Positions 14,634-18,940 of a stretch of 64,000 bases of DNA are shown in pieces (position 1 is the first letter of the stretch; the number at the start of each line of letters is the position of its first letter). The translations under genes and the position numbers were made by a program. This stretch comes from Planctomycetota bacterium (lineage in GTDB: Bacteria > Planctomycetota > Planctomycetia > Planctomycetales > Planctomycetaceae): the NCBI GenBank assembly GCA_030836185.1, contig JAURQH010000102.1, positions 1-64,000 of the forward strand, in the 5' to 3' direction. The notes beneath the pieces were generated by a model. It was not told the DNA's origin and did no database searches. It saw only the letters and a list, made by a program, of their open reading frames with translations.

Positions 14634-15007
14634 GTCATTTCTCGACCACTTAATCTTTCTCTCCCCGGCCTGATTTGCCAGATTCCCTGCGATTTGTGCT
14701 GCGCTGGTTCAGTTTATGAGGCAGATTCAGTCGAATTCTGACAAAATCCTAAAGATGACCGTTATGGATGTTATGTAAGTTGTAATAAGACGGTTTCATA
14801 CGCACTGACGGAATTCAAATCTGAAATATTTAAGGCATACACAAGGTTTTTACCCATTTTCTTAAAAGTGAACGATTTGAACGAATTTTGGGTTGCCGCA
14901 ATCCACTCCTAAGTGTAAAAAGATAAATGAACGATTTGGACGTTATTGTTCAGCTCATTCATTTCTTTCTGACTCATCCTGCTGTTCAATTCCTGGAGAA
15001 CCGATTG
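14634..15007 (+). other. A/T-rich intergenic region upstream of the sigma factor gene
   Basis: This 374-base gap between prs and the sigma factor is noticeably richer in A and T than its neighbours. The sigma frame is open back to ATG at 14927, but that stretch lacks a ribosome site and reads as a poor N-terminus. I saw no strong terminator after prs and no clear -35/-10 pair. It may hold the regulatory region of the sigma gene. Confidence 0.5.
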
Positions 15008-16033
15008 ATGCCAAAACCTGCAACGACATCACGAGCCAAATCACAAAAAGCGACGAACTCGAGGATCAAGTCGGCTCAAACGCGAAAAACCACTAAAATT
15101 AAAAACAAACACTCGTCGCAACTTCTCGCTCAAGCAGAGCTGATTTCCGAGCTTGATATCGATTTCATCAACAATGACGAGTTTCCGAATTCGGACAGTT
15201 ACGACCGCATGGAAGCGATCTTAGTCAAAGAATATGAAAACAAGCGAAAGCCGCGTGTGAAGCCATCCAAAGATCTGCCCTCGTACTTTGCCAAATTGTA
15301 TGAGACACCTCTTCTCACGCCACAAGAAGAGCACGATTTATTCTGGGCCATGAACTTTCTGAAGTATCGGGCCAATCTGTTAAAAGTCTCACTCGATGTG
15401 ACTAAGCCTGATAAGCATCTGATCGAAGAAATTCAGAAATGTCTGGGGCGTTCGGAACAGGTTCGTGATCGTATTGTCCAAGCAAATCTGCGATTGGTTG
15501 TTTCACTGGCTCGAAAGTTTTGTGACCATTACTCCACCTTCGAAGAACTTGTCAGTGATGGGAATATCACACTGATGAACGCCGCTCTCAAATTTGATTG
15601 TGCTCGCGGATTCAGGTTTAGTACCTACGCGACTCACGCGACTCAACGTGATTATTATCGGCAGATTCAGAAACGTCGCAAGAATGCACAACGAATCACC
15701 GGCGATCAAAATGAATTTTTAGGCGACATCGGCCAAGAGAATGACGAAGAAGAAGTGCCAATGAAAACTCAGGCTTTGCTCTATCAGAAAGTCATGGAGG
15801 TTTTTGAGCACGAGTTGGATGAGCGTGAGCAACATATCATCTGTGCCAGGTTTGGAATCAACGAGCAAGAATCGGGACAGACATTACGATCCGTCGGCGA
15901 ACAGCTCGGTATCAGCAAAGAGCGAGTTCGACAATTGCAAATATTGGCTGTCGAAAAATTGCAGCAAGTCCTCCTTGAAAAGCAAAACATCCTGCAACTG
16001 ATCGATAACATGCCCGTTTCTGCAACGGCTTGA
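15008..16033 (+). CDS. divergent sigma-70 family RNA polymerase sigma factor
   Basis: A 341-residue sigma factor with a basic, low-complexity N-terminus (about 1-40), a region 1.2-like part (LYETPLLTPQEEHDLFWAM), region 2 (RIVQANLRLVVSLARKF; EELVSDGNITLMNAALKFD; GFRFSTYAT) and region 4 with a helix-turn-helix (LRSVGEQLGISKERVRQLQ). I chose ATG at 15008 because GGAG lies nine bases upstream. Region 2.3/2.4 is odd. Housekeeping sigmas continue FSTYATWWIRQA, but here it is FSTYATHATQRDYYRQ, so the tryptophan pair that helps melt the -10 element is replaced (about residues 210-211). Region 3 looks short. It is likely an alternative sigma factor typical of planctomycetes; its target promoters are unknown. 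Confidence 0.88.
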   Translation: MPKPATTSRAKSQKATNSRIKSAQTRKTTKIKNKHSSQLLAQAELISELDIDFINNDEFPNSDSYDRMEAILVKEYENKRKPRVKPSKDLPSYFAKLYETPLLTPQEEHDLFWAMNFLKYRANLLKVSLDVTKPDKHLIEEIQKCLGRSEQVRDRIVQANLRLVVSLARKFCDHYSTFEELVSDGNITLMNAALKFDCARGFRFSTYATHATQRDYYRQIQKRRKNAQRITGDQNEFLGDIGQENDEEEVPMKTQALLYQKVMEVFEHELDEREQHIICARFGINEQESGQTLRSVGEQLGISKERVRQLQILAVEKLQQVLLEKQNILQLIDNMPVSATA

Positions 16034-16066: not shown

Positions 16067-17863
16067 TCAGGAGACGACTTGATTCAATGCGTTCAGTTTG
16101 GGTGTGTGCTCAGCAATTATGAAGCTTTGATAGCCGAGTAATTCATTGGCAACATGAGAGGTCGATTTCGATTGTATGTTGATACTTGGGAAGGCGATTT
16201 TCAGGGAATTGCCCTGTTTTCTCCAAGCATTCTTGCCACTTTTTTTACCAAAGAACGAACGGTCGAGACGCTCTTTCAAATTGAGAGTCTCCCCCACGTA
16301 CAATTGTTTCTTGCCAGATTGAATCACATATAAGCCGGGATTACTGTCGCAGTCTTCTAAATCGAGCTTTTCCAGTTTAATGGGTTTACCTGTTTCGATC
16401 TTCGTGGAGTTTCGGTCTCGTGCGATTTTTTCGGAACGTGATCGCGCGAGTTTGGATTGTTTTCGGACGGTCAATGCTGCCCAACGATAATCGATGGATT
16501 GGAAACCGGGAGCAAACTGAGCAGCCGTCCGATCAAACTCTGCTGCGAGAACAGGATCACAATAGAGATCATCCAAGCTGACTCGATGCTCATCGACTGT
16601 CAGTTTCCAGGCGATCTCGGCAGCATCAAAATACTTGTCGAGTTCGTCCCAGGAATAGCTTGTGCGTTTCTCTGTCTCAATGCCGGCTAATTTGATTTTC
16701 CCCGACTTTCTCAGTCGGAACAAATATCGATTGAGGTCGAGTGGAGTTCCTTCCAGACTTTTTCGTAAACAACTATCGAGAAACGCTTGATTGAGCTTGG
16801 GGTCAAGAACCAAGCGGTCCACCGAATATCCCTCATGAGCTTCTGCAAACGCGGCAATCAGTTCTGACTCAAAGGATTCTTTCAGTTGTTTGTCGGTCAT
16901 TGGTTTGTCGGTCGCTTTAGAAAGCTGTTTCCCACGACCATCAACGGGATAAGTGACAGGTGCTGATAACTTGGGATCTTCTGCTCCGTCGAGAGGATCG
17001 CCCGGTTGAACGGCATCGATTCGTTCTTGTCCCTTCTCGGCGTATTCTTCAGACAGTTCCATCGTCAGGAAATTCCGATGCAGTTTCTTGGCCACAACAC
17101 TTGTGCTCGCGCTGCCGGAAAAGGGATCAAAGACCGTTTCACCGGCCCTCGAACAACAGCGAATAATTCGACCGAGTAATTGTTCGGGCATCTGACAACC
17201 GTGAAAACCGGCCCGTTCTTTGAACGTCCCGGCAACTCGTGGAAAGTACCAGCAATTTTCATCGGGATTGAAACCATCCTGACAATCTTGTGGTCTGAGA
17301 ATCCAGGTGTCGTCCGGGACACGACCTTTGGGGTTGGCGCGTTTGTCGTTATAAACAAGTTGTCGCGCCGAAGGGACGGCAACTGCGTCACGATTGAATG
17401 TGAATTCTTTGGGGTTCTTGACGAAGTAGAGTAGGTGGGTGTGTGATCGAGTGAATTTCGATTCGCAATGGACGCCAAACGTGTAGTACCAGATCACCCA
17501 ATTCCGAGAGTGAAAGCCAAGCTGATGAGCAAGAATTTTGAGTTCCGCGGCAAAATCATCGCCGATGGCCAACCAGAAAGCGCCATCGTCTTTGAGTAAT
17601 CGATGGACTTCAGTCATCCATTGTTTCGACCATTCAAGATAATCGTCGACCGTTTTTCGATCATCATAGACATCGTATTTGTAACCGATGTTGAACGGTG
17701 GGTCGGCAAACGCCAAGTCGATAGAACCTTCGGGCAAGGCCTGCATCATTTCGATGCAATCGCCTGTTAGTATCGTATTCAGAGAGGCAGTTTCCTGACT
17801 CTTGTTATTTTTGGGCTTGCCGTTGGATTTTTTTTTGGAAGTTTTCTTGTTCTTCTTGGCCAC
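16067..17863 (-). CDS. beta-class DNA methyltransferase fused to a GIY-YIG domain
   Basis: Residues about 25-290 form an amino (N6-adenine or N4-cytosine) DNA methyltransferase. Motif IV DPPFNIGYKY lies at 54-63 and motif I VFDPFSGSAST at 244-254, so the order (IV before I) is that of beta-class enzymes. Residues about 330-480 are a helical region I do not recognise, possibly for target recognition. Residues 510-598 are a GIY-YIG domain: GLYVIQSGKKQLYVGET carries both halves of the name motif, an Arg follows in NLKERLDR, and ANELLGYQ with TPKLNALN matches the late Glu and Asn of this nuclease fold. The N-terminus is Lys/Asn-rich. The start is GTG with GGGAGG six bases upstream. No restriction or specificity gene is adjacent. 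It could be a solitary methylase with an added nuclease or a single-chain system; this is undecided. Confidence 0.88.
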   Translation of the reverse strand: MAKKNKKTSKKKSNGKPKNNKSQETASLNTILTGDCIEMMQALPEGSIDLAFADPPFNIGYKYDVYDDRKTVDDYLEWSKQWMTEVHRLLKDDGAFWLAIGDDFAAELKILAHQLGFHSRNWVIWYYTFGVHCESKFTRSHTHLLYFVKNPKEFTFNRDAVAVPSARQLVYNDKRANPKGRVPDDTWILRPQDCQDGFNPDENCWYFPRVAGTFKERAGFHGCQMPEQLLGRIIRCCSRAGETVFDPFSGSASTSVVAKKLHRNFLTMELSEEYAEKGQERIDAVQPGDPLDGAEDPKLSAPVTYPVDGRGKQLSKATDKPMTDKQLKESFESELIAAFAEAHEGYSVDRLVLDPKLNQAFLDSCLRKSLEGTPLDLNRYLFRLRKSGKIKLAGIETEKRTSYSWDELDKYFDAAEIAWKLTVDEHRVSLDDLYCDPVLAAEFDRTAAQFAPGFQSIDYRWAALTVRKQSKLARSRSEKIARDRNSTKIETGKPIKLEKLDLEDCDSNPGLYVIQSGKKQLYVGETLNLKERLDRSFFGKKSGKNAWRKQGNSLKIAFPSINIQSKSTSHVANELLGYQSFIIAEHTPKLNALNQVVS

Positions 17864-17912: not shown

Positions 17913-18785
17913 TTATTTATTGTTCGAAAGTATGGGCAATGTGAGCCATTCCTCTTTAATGCTGACATTGACACCTTCGGTGGGAATTTCTTCTTCCAAG
18001 GTCCACAGGATACCTTGCAAAATGAGTCTGCGGTAGACCTCCTCGCTCCAGTTGCCGTGATAGTGTAGTCCGCTGAAGCCGAAAGAGCGCCCTCCTTGTG
18101 GGCGTTCCCAAGCCCAGGCGGTCATGGACCAGCCATCTTTCATTTTTGATTCCATGATGGGAATGATGGGTGAGGGTGATTTGAATTGTTTGAGATTGTA
18201 GTAAAACTCATCTTCGATCTCGATCGGTCGCAATCCATATTGGATCGGATGATTCTCGGTGGTGGGACGGAAACGGGTTTTCAGGAAATCGTACTTGCGA
18301 TCTTTTCCGCCGTGAGTCGCACCGAGCAGCGGAAGAAAGGCGGCAATATCTTCATCGGCTTTACTACCAATGGCCCAATGAAAAGCGACCAAACCTCCTC
18401 CCCGGTGTGCATAATCCTGGAACAGTTTTAATCGCGCGGGTGTTTGTTGAATCCAGCGCGAGCCTTGTGAGATGAACATGACAACCGTGTCAGCACGCTC
18501 CAATAGTTCTGGGCCGTCTTCCCACTTTTCGTCAGCCTTGGAAAGGATCACATGATGCCGGGTGTGCCGCTGAAGCATATTGCCAAGTAAGCGAATGCCG
18601 GCTTCAAATTCGTGCGTCGTTGGTTTATGTCCATCGGGGCCTTGCCACAAAAGCACGACTCGTTTGGGGAGAAGGGCTTTGGTTTTCTGGCAATTCGCAC
18701 GGGCGTCAGAATCACTCAAACCACCAAGGATCGGCCCCAGACTGCAGAGTAGCCAGATGGCGATTCGATTTTTCGAGAAAATCAT
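17913..18785 (-). CDS. ThuA-like domain protein, exported (1)
   Basis: A 290-residue secreted protein with a signal peptide (IAIWLLCSLGPILGGLSDS) and a ThuA-like glutamine-amidotransferase fold: VVLLWQGPDGHKPTTHEFE, ADTVVMFISQGSRW, GGGLVAFHWAIG, HPIQYGLRPIEIEDEFYY and GFSGLHYHGNWSEEVYRR. ThuA-like proteins are common in planctomycete secreted repertoires and are linked to trehalose/sugar use in rhizobia; the chemistry is not established. I start at 18785, where AGGGA lies upstream; the frame is open to 18839. A second, separate ThuA-like gene lies at 45159. Confidence 0.86.
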   Translation of the reverse strand: MIFSKNRIAIWLLCSLGPILGGLSDSDARANCQKTKALLPKRVVLLWQGPDGHKPTTHEFEAGIRLLGNMLQRHTRHHVILSKADEKWEDGPELLERADTVVMFISQGSRWIQQTPARLKLFQDYAHRGGGLVAFHWAIGSKADEDIAAFLPLLGATHGGKDRKYDFLKTRFRPTTENHPIQYGLRPIEIEDEFYYNLKQFKSPSPIIPIMESKMKDGWSMTAWAWERPQGGRSFGFSGLHYHGNWSEEVYRRLILQGILWTLEEEIPTEGVNVSIKEEWLTLPILSNNK

Positions 18786-18940
18786 TATTCTTCCCTGTTT
18801 GTTGCAAGATATCGGCGTACGACTGCCACATATACTCATGGAGGCGTCAGTTCCTGGCCACTCAGTTTATCAGGATCGAAGCAGGAAATCCCTCTGTAAA
18901 TCATGATTCATAACATTACCGATCAATAGGTAAGTACAAA

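Follow-up and report, generated by a model that had tools for sequence, protein, structure and literature searches.

The window considered here is a 64,000-nucleotide stretch of planctomycete DNA, and the gene of interest fills a single uninterrupted minus-strand frame running from 17863 to 16067 (598 codons followed by TGA), with GGGAGG standing directly before its GTG start. A preliminary description of the window, drawn from the letters alone, had reported one clean 598-codon frame; this is borne out, the coding strand being the minus strand. The encoded protein joins a DNA methyltransferase (MTase) domain to a duplicated helical region and a C-terminal GIY-YIG fold (Table 1), and we refer to the last two parts together as the module. 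Identity over the whole frame is 91% to the relative G002 and 77% to G001. Because the frame is conserved in both, and 81 fused frames were found in all, the fusion is not a chance reading frame.

The ThuA-domain gene directly upstream is a syntenic neighbour and probably has no functional part in the MTase gene. The G002 locus keeps the order of polyprenyl synthetase, Prs, sigma factor, ThuA, a 711-residue frame, DUF1571, TctA and TctC, and the G001 locus is syntenic as far as its contig extends, so that the MTase-GIY-YIG gene looks like a fixed chromosomal gene rather than part of a mobile defence island. A scan of the 10 neighbouring genes returned no convincing defence gene, and the earlier remark that no other restriction gene lies nearby holds for these neighbours. 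Two candidates were rejected: the sigma factor as the defence gene MzaA (PADLOC), where the match falls on its sigma region, and Prs as ShosT, where the score is weak. The sigma-70-like factor, at 14927-16033, is convergent with the MTase gene and 33 bases separate the two gene ends. Searches of phages gave no match to the C-terminal part of the protein, and searches of plasmids gave none to the partner module described below. The whole protein matched 327 plasmid records, none of which covers 80% of it; the plasmid matches listed cover the MTase part, one of them (H11) extending to residue 367. Against a defence library, the MTase part drew generic MTase_II and similar matches and the C-terminal part weak matches only.

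Table 1. Features of the MTase-GIY-YIG locus (positions in the window; residues of the encoded protein)
Feature	Position	Strand	Details
Whole gene: MTase, duplicated helical domain, predicted pseudo-GIY-YIG	16067..17863	minus	598 aa, GTG start, TGA stop
Beta-class DNA amino-MTase domain, residues 25-300	16964..17791	minus	Pfam, structure matches, invariant motifs
Motif IV, DPPF, residues 54-57	17693-17704	minus	
Motif I, FDPFSGSAST, residues 245-254	17102-17131	minus	
Helical repeat 1, residues 323-392	16688..16897	minus	AlphaFold2 model, hhalign
Helical repeat 2, residues 411-484	16412..16633	minus	AlphaFold2 model, hhalign
GIY-YIG fold, residues 508-598, predicted catalytically dead	16070..16342	minus	PF01541, UvrC profile match, active-site counts
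Tyr512, GIY motif	16328..16330	minus	Retained
Tyr522, YIG motif	16298..16300	minus	Retained
Arg532	16268..16270	minus	Retained
Ser536, at Arg+4	16256..16258	minus	His in 23/23 intact stand-alone relatives of two clades
Glu574 codon	16142..16144	minus	Acid common to 52/84 fused rows
Gln579 codon, CAA	16127..16129	minus	At metal-binding Glu position (UvrC E76 / Eco29kI E142)
Asn591	16091..16093	minus	Retained
ThuA-domain gene	17913..18839	minus	Pfam ThuA; 49-base gap, directly upstream of MTase gene; synteny in G001, G002

Beta-class amino-MTases are defined by a motif IV that lies ahead of motif I. The window protein falls in this class: Pfam N6_N4_Mtase (PF01555) matches residues 48-277 well above its cut-off (E 5.7e-49, 167.5 bits against 26.7), and DPPF precedes FDPFSGS (245-251). 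Both motifs are present as the preliminary description had given them. In alignment A3 (61 rows) the D-P-P and N of motif IV and the D-P-F, G-S and T of motif I are invariant, and the F of DPPF is present at 90% or more. The predicted MTase fold is closest to M.MboIIA (Z 26.4) and CcrM (Z 25.9), and the protein probably methylates DNA, with N6-adenine as its probable target. CcrM and YhdJ share its fold and motif order, and the nearest plasmid matches listed are annotated yhdJ, at about 34% identity to the window protein. However, the protein scores far below the curated NCBIfam cut-offs for the CcrM equivalog NF050803 (124.6 against 830) and the YhdJ / PRK11524 equivalog NF008572 (154.3 against 292), and it carries approximately 280 additional residues that include the putative pseudo-nuclease. 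CcrM is described as widespread in its own group (PMC9973331), and the window MTase is likewise widespread in its group.

An AlphaFold2 model for which 61 fused proteins were aligned (mean pLDDT 81.7, pTM 0.54) consists of an MTase fold, a low-confidence linker at residues 299-317, some ten helices and, at the C-terminus, a domain of the alpha/beta type. The helical region that had been proposed to lie between the two domains is real and well predicted in this model, and it is a tandem duplication, repeat 1 aligning to repeat 2 with an hhalign probability of 97%. The repeats of the window protein match no Pfam family. In a scan of 23 modules, the sole family apart from GIY-YIG families to match two or more members was DUF7508 (3 members, best E 0.029). 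The helical part, searched within a whole-module model, gave no convincing fold match (best Z 5.6, to Nur), which is no evidence for a new fold.

The C-terminal domain had been called GIY-YIG in the preliminary description, and the fold is supported by profile and structure alike. Pfam GIY-YIG (PF01541) matches residues 509-552 at 23.2-26.7 bits against a cut-off of 22.6, over profile positions 2-45 of 78, and a profile of the module family matches UvrC at 2.5e-11. The modelled module of a stand-alone relative (L116, pLDDT 90.8) matches the UvrC GIY-YIG domain with a Z of 9.7, so that the assignment combines a profile above its cut-off with a fold match taken from the model of a partner protein. 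GIY-YIG proteins were also among the best matches of the viral structures, most of them aligned over approximately 85-130 columns.

Retention of the fold is not accompanied by retention of the complete active site. In Eco29kI the reported site comprises Y49, Y76, R104, H108, E142 and N154, and a single Glu holds the metal in GIY-YIG enzymes (PMC3161791). The Glu column of the family profile aligns with UvrC E76 (the residue being counted back from the printed alignment), and in the window protein this column holds Q579, 12 residues before the terminal Asn. Because the same 12-residue spacing to Asn is kept in 77/84 fused and 23/23 intact rows, we consider the column well placed. Across 122 modules from genomes of the same class, Glu occupied it in 0/81 fused and 29/41 stand-alone rows; after three rows at contig edges (L108, L158 and L189, which run off their contig ends) were counted as fused, the figure became 0/84. 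L108 and L158 fall among the fused rows in the module tree, and L189 resembles L130 by eye. The residues found in the 84 fused rows were Q (43), R (16), K (15), W (4), A (3), V (1), C (1) and M (1). Glu was kept in 6/6 partners encoded next to a fused gene, in 17/17 members of a second stand-alone clade and in 6/15 of the remaining rows (3 unaligned). The full Tyr-Tyr-Arg-His-Glu-Asn set is present in all 23 modules of the two stand-alone clades; His at Arg+4 occurs in 6/6 and 17/17 of these, respectively, and in 18/84 fused rows. The strict Tyr, Tyr, Arg, Asn set was found in 47/84 fused rows, including the window protein (Y512, Y522, R532 and N591), and Arg is lost in 19/84.

Since the metal-binding column lacks Glu in all 84 fused rows, we predict that the fused GIY-YIG domain does not cut. 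The Glu-to-Gln replacement at Q579 is the same change as Eco29kI E142Q (PDB 3mx4), which its PDB title calls an 'inactive variant'. Of the catalytic residues listed in the preliminary description, both Tyr, the Arg and the Asn therefore stand and the Glu does not, the catalytic place being taken by Gln579. That description had made its reading depend on the key Glu lying at a catalytic position; the alignment puts it elsewhere, and the suggestion that the domain cuts DNA is unsupported. Columns 541, 557 and 581 were considered as places for a replacement metal ligand and rejected, acids there having frequencies of 0.91-1.0 in the intact clades and 0.06-0.14 in the fused group.

The late Glu residues of the window protein are E574 and E585. 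Column 585 holds Glu in 10/84 fused rows, and column 574 is acidic in 52/84 fused rows compared with 0.13 of intact rows. E574 is therefore not a random residue. For 39 of these 52 rows the distance from the acid to column 579 is exactly five residues. Arg532 is retained in 45/52 fused rows that have the acid versus 20/32 that do not. On alignment evidence it is conceivable that E574 serves as a displaced metal ligand, at a position different from that of UvrC E76. This weakens the interpretation of the domain as a dead nuclease, which we nevertheless keep because 32/84 fused rows have no acid at column 574.

The distribution of the gene was examined in several sets of genomes. A search with the whole protein over 59 genomes, its own included, gave a match in 56 and a best E below 1e-60 in 53; three of the other six had no match, and three had a best E of 1e-29 or weaker. 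The fused form was present in 16/59 genomes, the window's included. A class-wide search for the module matched 330/397 genomes, with six candidates scored per genome, so that a weak second module could be missed. Many of these matches cover the UvrC-like part only, and 117 stretches were taken from among the matches listed that reach into the helical part (G194:C85, G267:C367, G349:C254 and G349:C693 were left out). The 122-row module alignment leaves out matches below 90 bits, namely those in L198, L199 and L201, that in the first piece of L167, and the UvrC-like matches in L135 and L178. The search for other proteins with the same domain order, which the preliminary description had proposed, thus yielded 81 fused frames within the class, the window's among them. 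Over the phylum (392 genomes, E up to 1e-12), the only module-wide match outside the class was a 341-residue frame in G728; other out-of-class matches start no earlier than position 134 of the 266-position model and therefore miss the greater part of the helical region, as would be expected of UvrC.

Trees were calculated for each half of the protein. The module tree comprised 120 rows with the Glu column removed (L155, a truncated frame, and L189, at a contig edge, were left out), and on it 3 changes suffice for the three labels used (fused, operon partner, other stand-alone). In this quick tree 40/117 inner branches are left open. When the 83 fused rows were constrained to a single clade, the log-likelihood was 7.17 above that of the free search (p-AU 0.67). 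A single fusion event with Glu already absent is compatible with these values, which fall short of proving it. The MTase tree (82 fused and 22 MTase-only rows) needs 12 changes between the two states; in it the MTase-only row L020 and the fused row L069 (G030) represent one gene, and the fused row L199 carries a remnant module. We read the 12 changes as repeated loss of the module, a reading that goes beyond the MTase tree, which by itself allows repeated gain as well. By profile, L199 keeps a remnant of the first repeat only, as does L021 by eye, and both look like truncated forms of the fused gene; the G006 match to the window protein extends to query residue 364.

Selection on the parts of the gene was estimated with a Nei-Gojobori style calculation (our own script) on the window gene and its G002 counterpart, which put dN/dS at 0.024 in the MTase, with higher values in the helical (0.091) and GIY-YIG (0.101) parts. 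Against G001, synonymous sites were saturated for the MTase, the helical part and the whole gene, and the GIY-YIG part gave 0.15. Because dN/dS is close to 0.1, the helical and GIY-YIG parts appear to be under purifying selection in the window's genus and are not simply decaying.

In six genomes from four families (G016, G037, G384, G101, G335 and G211), a gene for a full-site GIY-YIG module directly follows the fused gene. These partner modules carry the same helical domain as the fused protein. The two genes overlap by 4 bases at L057, L058 and L129 and by 1 base at L116 and L120, and are 6 bases apart at L131; the L129 partner starts with TTG. A seventh copy of the partner, L155, is truncated. 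The six partners form one clade (SH-aLRT 90) across the four families. In the module tree, L131, which has a partner, is the window's nearest kin outside its genus (SH-aLRT 89); the MTase tree does not group L131 with the window. Distances between MTases and between partners are weakly correlated over the 6 genomes (Mantel r 0.53, p 0.09). The partner as a local copy of the fused module was considered and rejected, the identity of a partner to its own fused module being 0.26-0.32 against a mean of 0.305 in non-matching pairs. In the window's own genome (G000) no partner was found among all 8 + 6 candidates scored: the other GIY-YIG match is a frame with the UvrC-like part only. The window MTase may be an orphan, with no cognate nuclease gene among its 10 neighbours and no second GIY-YIG module in G000. 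A separate stand-alone clade of 17 modules (L070, L071, L072, L074, L125, L142, L156, L175 and others) has the helical repeats and a complete GIY-YIG site, and N-termini resembling signal peptides in many of its members, judged by eye, suggest that these may be exported nucleases.

Taken together, we favour, with a probability of roughly 0.6, the interpretation that the gene encodes a solitary MTase, perhaps the relic of a pair, whose dead GIY-YIG tail holds or positions the enzyme on DNA instead of cutting it. The beta-class MTase, whose family occurs in nearly all relatives searched, would methylate DNA as a solitary enzyme. Its C-terminal half, two helical repeats and a GIY-YIG fold that lacks the metal-binding Glu, would be a pseudo-nuclease that keeps the MTase on DNA without cutting, and the gene itself may represent the modifying half of a former two-gene system resembling restriction-modification, the nuclease half being absent here. 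The proposed DNA-holding role has to be set beside the missing clear fold match for the helical part and beside net charge: a test for fused GIY-YIG domains being more basic than intact ones showed no difference (p = 0.44), although the window's own GIY-YIG domain has a net charge of +8. The relic origin is counted against by the partner lying beside 6 (or 7, with the truncated L155) of 84 fused modules and by the weak correlation between MTase and partner distances.

A possible but less probable account, which overlaps with the favoured one on the origin of the gene, is that of two-component restriction, in which the fused protein works with the separate GIY-YIG nuclease, the dead domain acts as a dimer half or recruiter, and the window gene is a relic of such a system. 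The six full-site modules directly after fused genes, in one clade across four families, argue for it, as does the partner beside L131, and the B. subtilis cluster dnmA-yeeB-yeeC is reported to be what remains of a restriction-modification system, its MTase being an orphan (PMC9973331). The scarcity of partners and their apparent absence from the window genome weigh against it, together with the weak distance correlation and an MTase tree that does not place L131 with the window. A broader version, tentative and slightly more doubtful, would have the MTase carry a disarmed nuclease half, this pseudo-module pairing with an active GIY-YIG partner or bringing it to shared sites; the module would have spread to a Type I S subunit and to Eco57I-like methylases, while the window's lineage and many others would have retained the MTase and its dead DNA-holding domain after losing the nuclease. 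The restriction-modification link drawn in the preliminary description thus survives for the six relatives with a full-site GIY-YIG gene after the fused gene; the compact, self-cutting enzyme that it also envisaged does not fare as well.

Such a self-contained enzyme resembling type IIC, in which one protein methylates and cuts, perhaps with E574 as displaced ligand, is the least probable of the readings weighed here and very unlikely. A non-canonical cutting site stays conceivable, because Hpy188I is reported to have substituted active-site residues (PMC2630997) and BtgZI, of a different fold, to cut with a Q-for-E variant (PMC4081073). The domain order would suit an MTase with its nuclease, an artificial Eco29kI restriction-modification fusion is reported to be functional (PMC3039593), and both Tyr, the Arg, the Asn and, in 52/84 fused rows, an acid at column 574 are present. 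Nevertheless, the canonical column is without Glu in 84/84 fused rows and has it in 23/23 stand-alone modules of two clades, 32/84 fused rows lack the alternative acid, and the class-wide occurrence at a fixed locus speaks against the idea as well. We also consider it unlikely that the tail has lost its function and is decaying: the low dN/dS of the helical and GIY-YIG parts and the 81 open fused frames argue against this, although many relatives consist of the MTase alone, the MTase tree needs its 12 changes, L199 and L021 are remnants and Arg is lost in 19/84 fused rows.

Comparison with known systems indicates both shared and distinguishing features. Eco29kI (Z 6.9) and Hpy188I (Z 4.9) have the GIY-YIG fold in common with the module, as measured on the partner's model, and Eco29kI has the same Tyr, Tyr, Arg and Asn as the window protein; in the latter, however, Glu is replaced by Gln, as in inactive Eco29kI E142Q, and the domain is fused to an MTase. 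Fusions of a COG4123 MTase to GIY-YIG in Lactobacillales, proposed to be restriction-modification-like, likewise place the MTase N-terminal to GIY-YIG (PMC1564403). These are described as an NPPY MTase with a Slx1-type GIY-YIG listed without the C-terminal Asn (PMC1564403), whereas the window protein has a UvrC-like GIY-YIG with Asn and a beta-class DNA MTase. The B. subtilis DnmA-YeeB-YeeC relic also has an orphan MTase with a GIY-YIG gene in its cluster; unlike the window gene it consists of separate genes together with a helicase, yeeC belonging to the T5orf172/GIY-YIG family (PMC9973331). Type IIC enzymes hold an MTase and a nuclease fold in one chain, as the window protein does, but are described mostly as PD-(D/E)XK nucleases with gamma-class MTases and with the nuclease active (PMC4081073), whereas the canonical nuclease site of the window protein has no Glu. 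No report of this planctomycete MTase-GIY-YIG fusion appeared among the titles and abstract openings listed in searches of an open-licence library. In all the fused copies examined the nuclease domain has no metal ligand, yet selection (as measured in the window's genus) maintains it within a widespread DNA-modifying enzyme; related modules retain the complete site, either in the gene adjoining the fused one or in proteins that appear to be exported. How a restriction pair may become a solitary MTase, and how dead nucleases are put to new use, can now be tested directly. For MTase-GIY-YIG fusions, the motif alone is insufficient ground for annotation as a restriction enzyme.

The module was also observed in other contexts. 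At L187:2311-4797 a Type I S subunit (Methylase_S), directly after an R gene (EcoEI_R_C), ends in the helical and putative pseudo-GIY-YIG module, and two Eco57I-like methylases (L194:1299-6107 and L195:3811-7152) have the same module at their end. The module profile additionally matches L198:3-4820, a 1605-residue frame. At L073:1731-2882 the module follows a HicB domain and has Leu in place of the catalytic Glu, and L146, L149 and L154 group with L073 in the module tree. Finally, a stand-alone module with Glu (L191:3881-5883) lies just ahead of an MTase-only gene and overlaps it, an order opposite to that of the operon partners.
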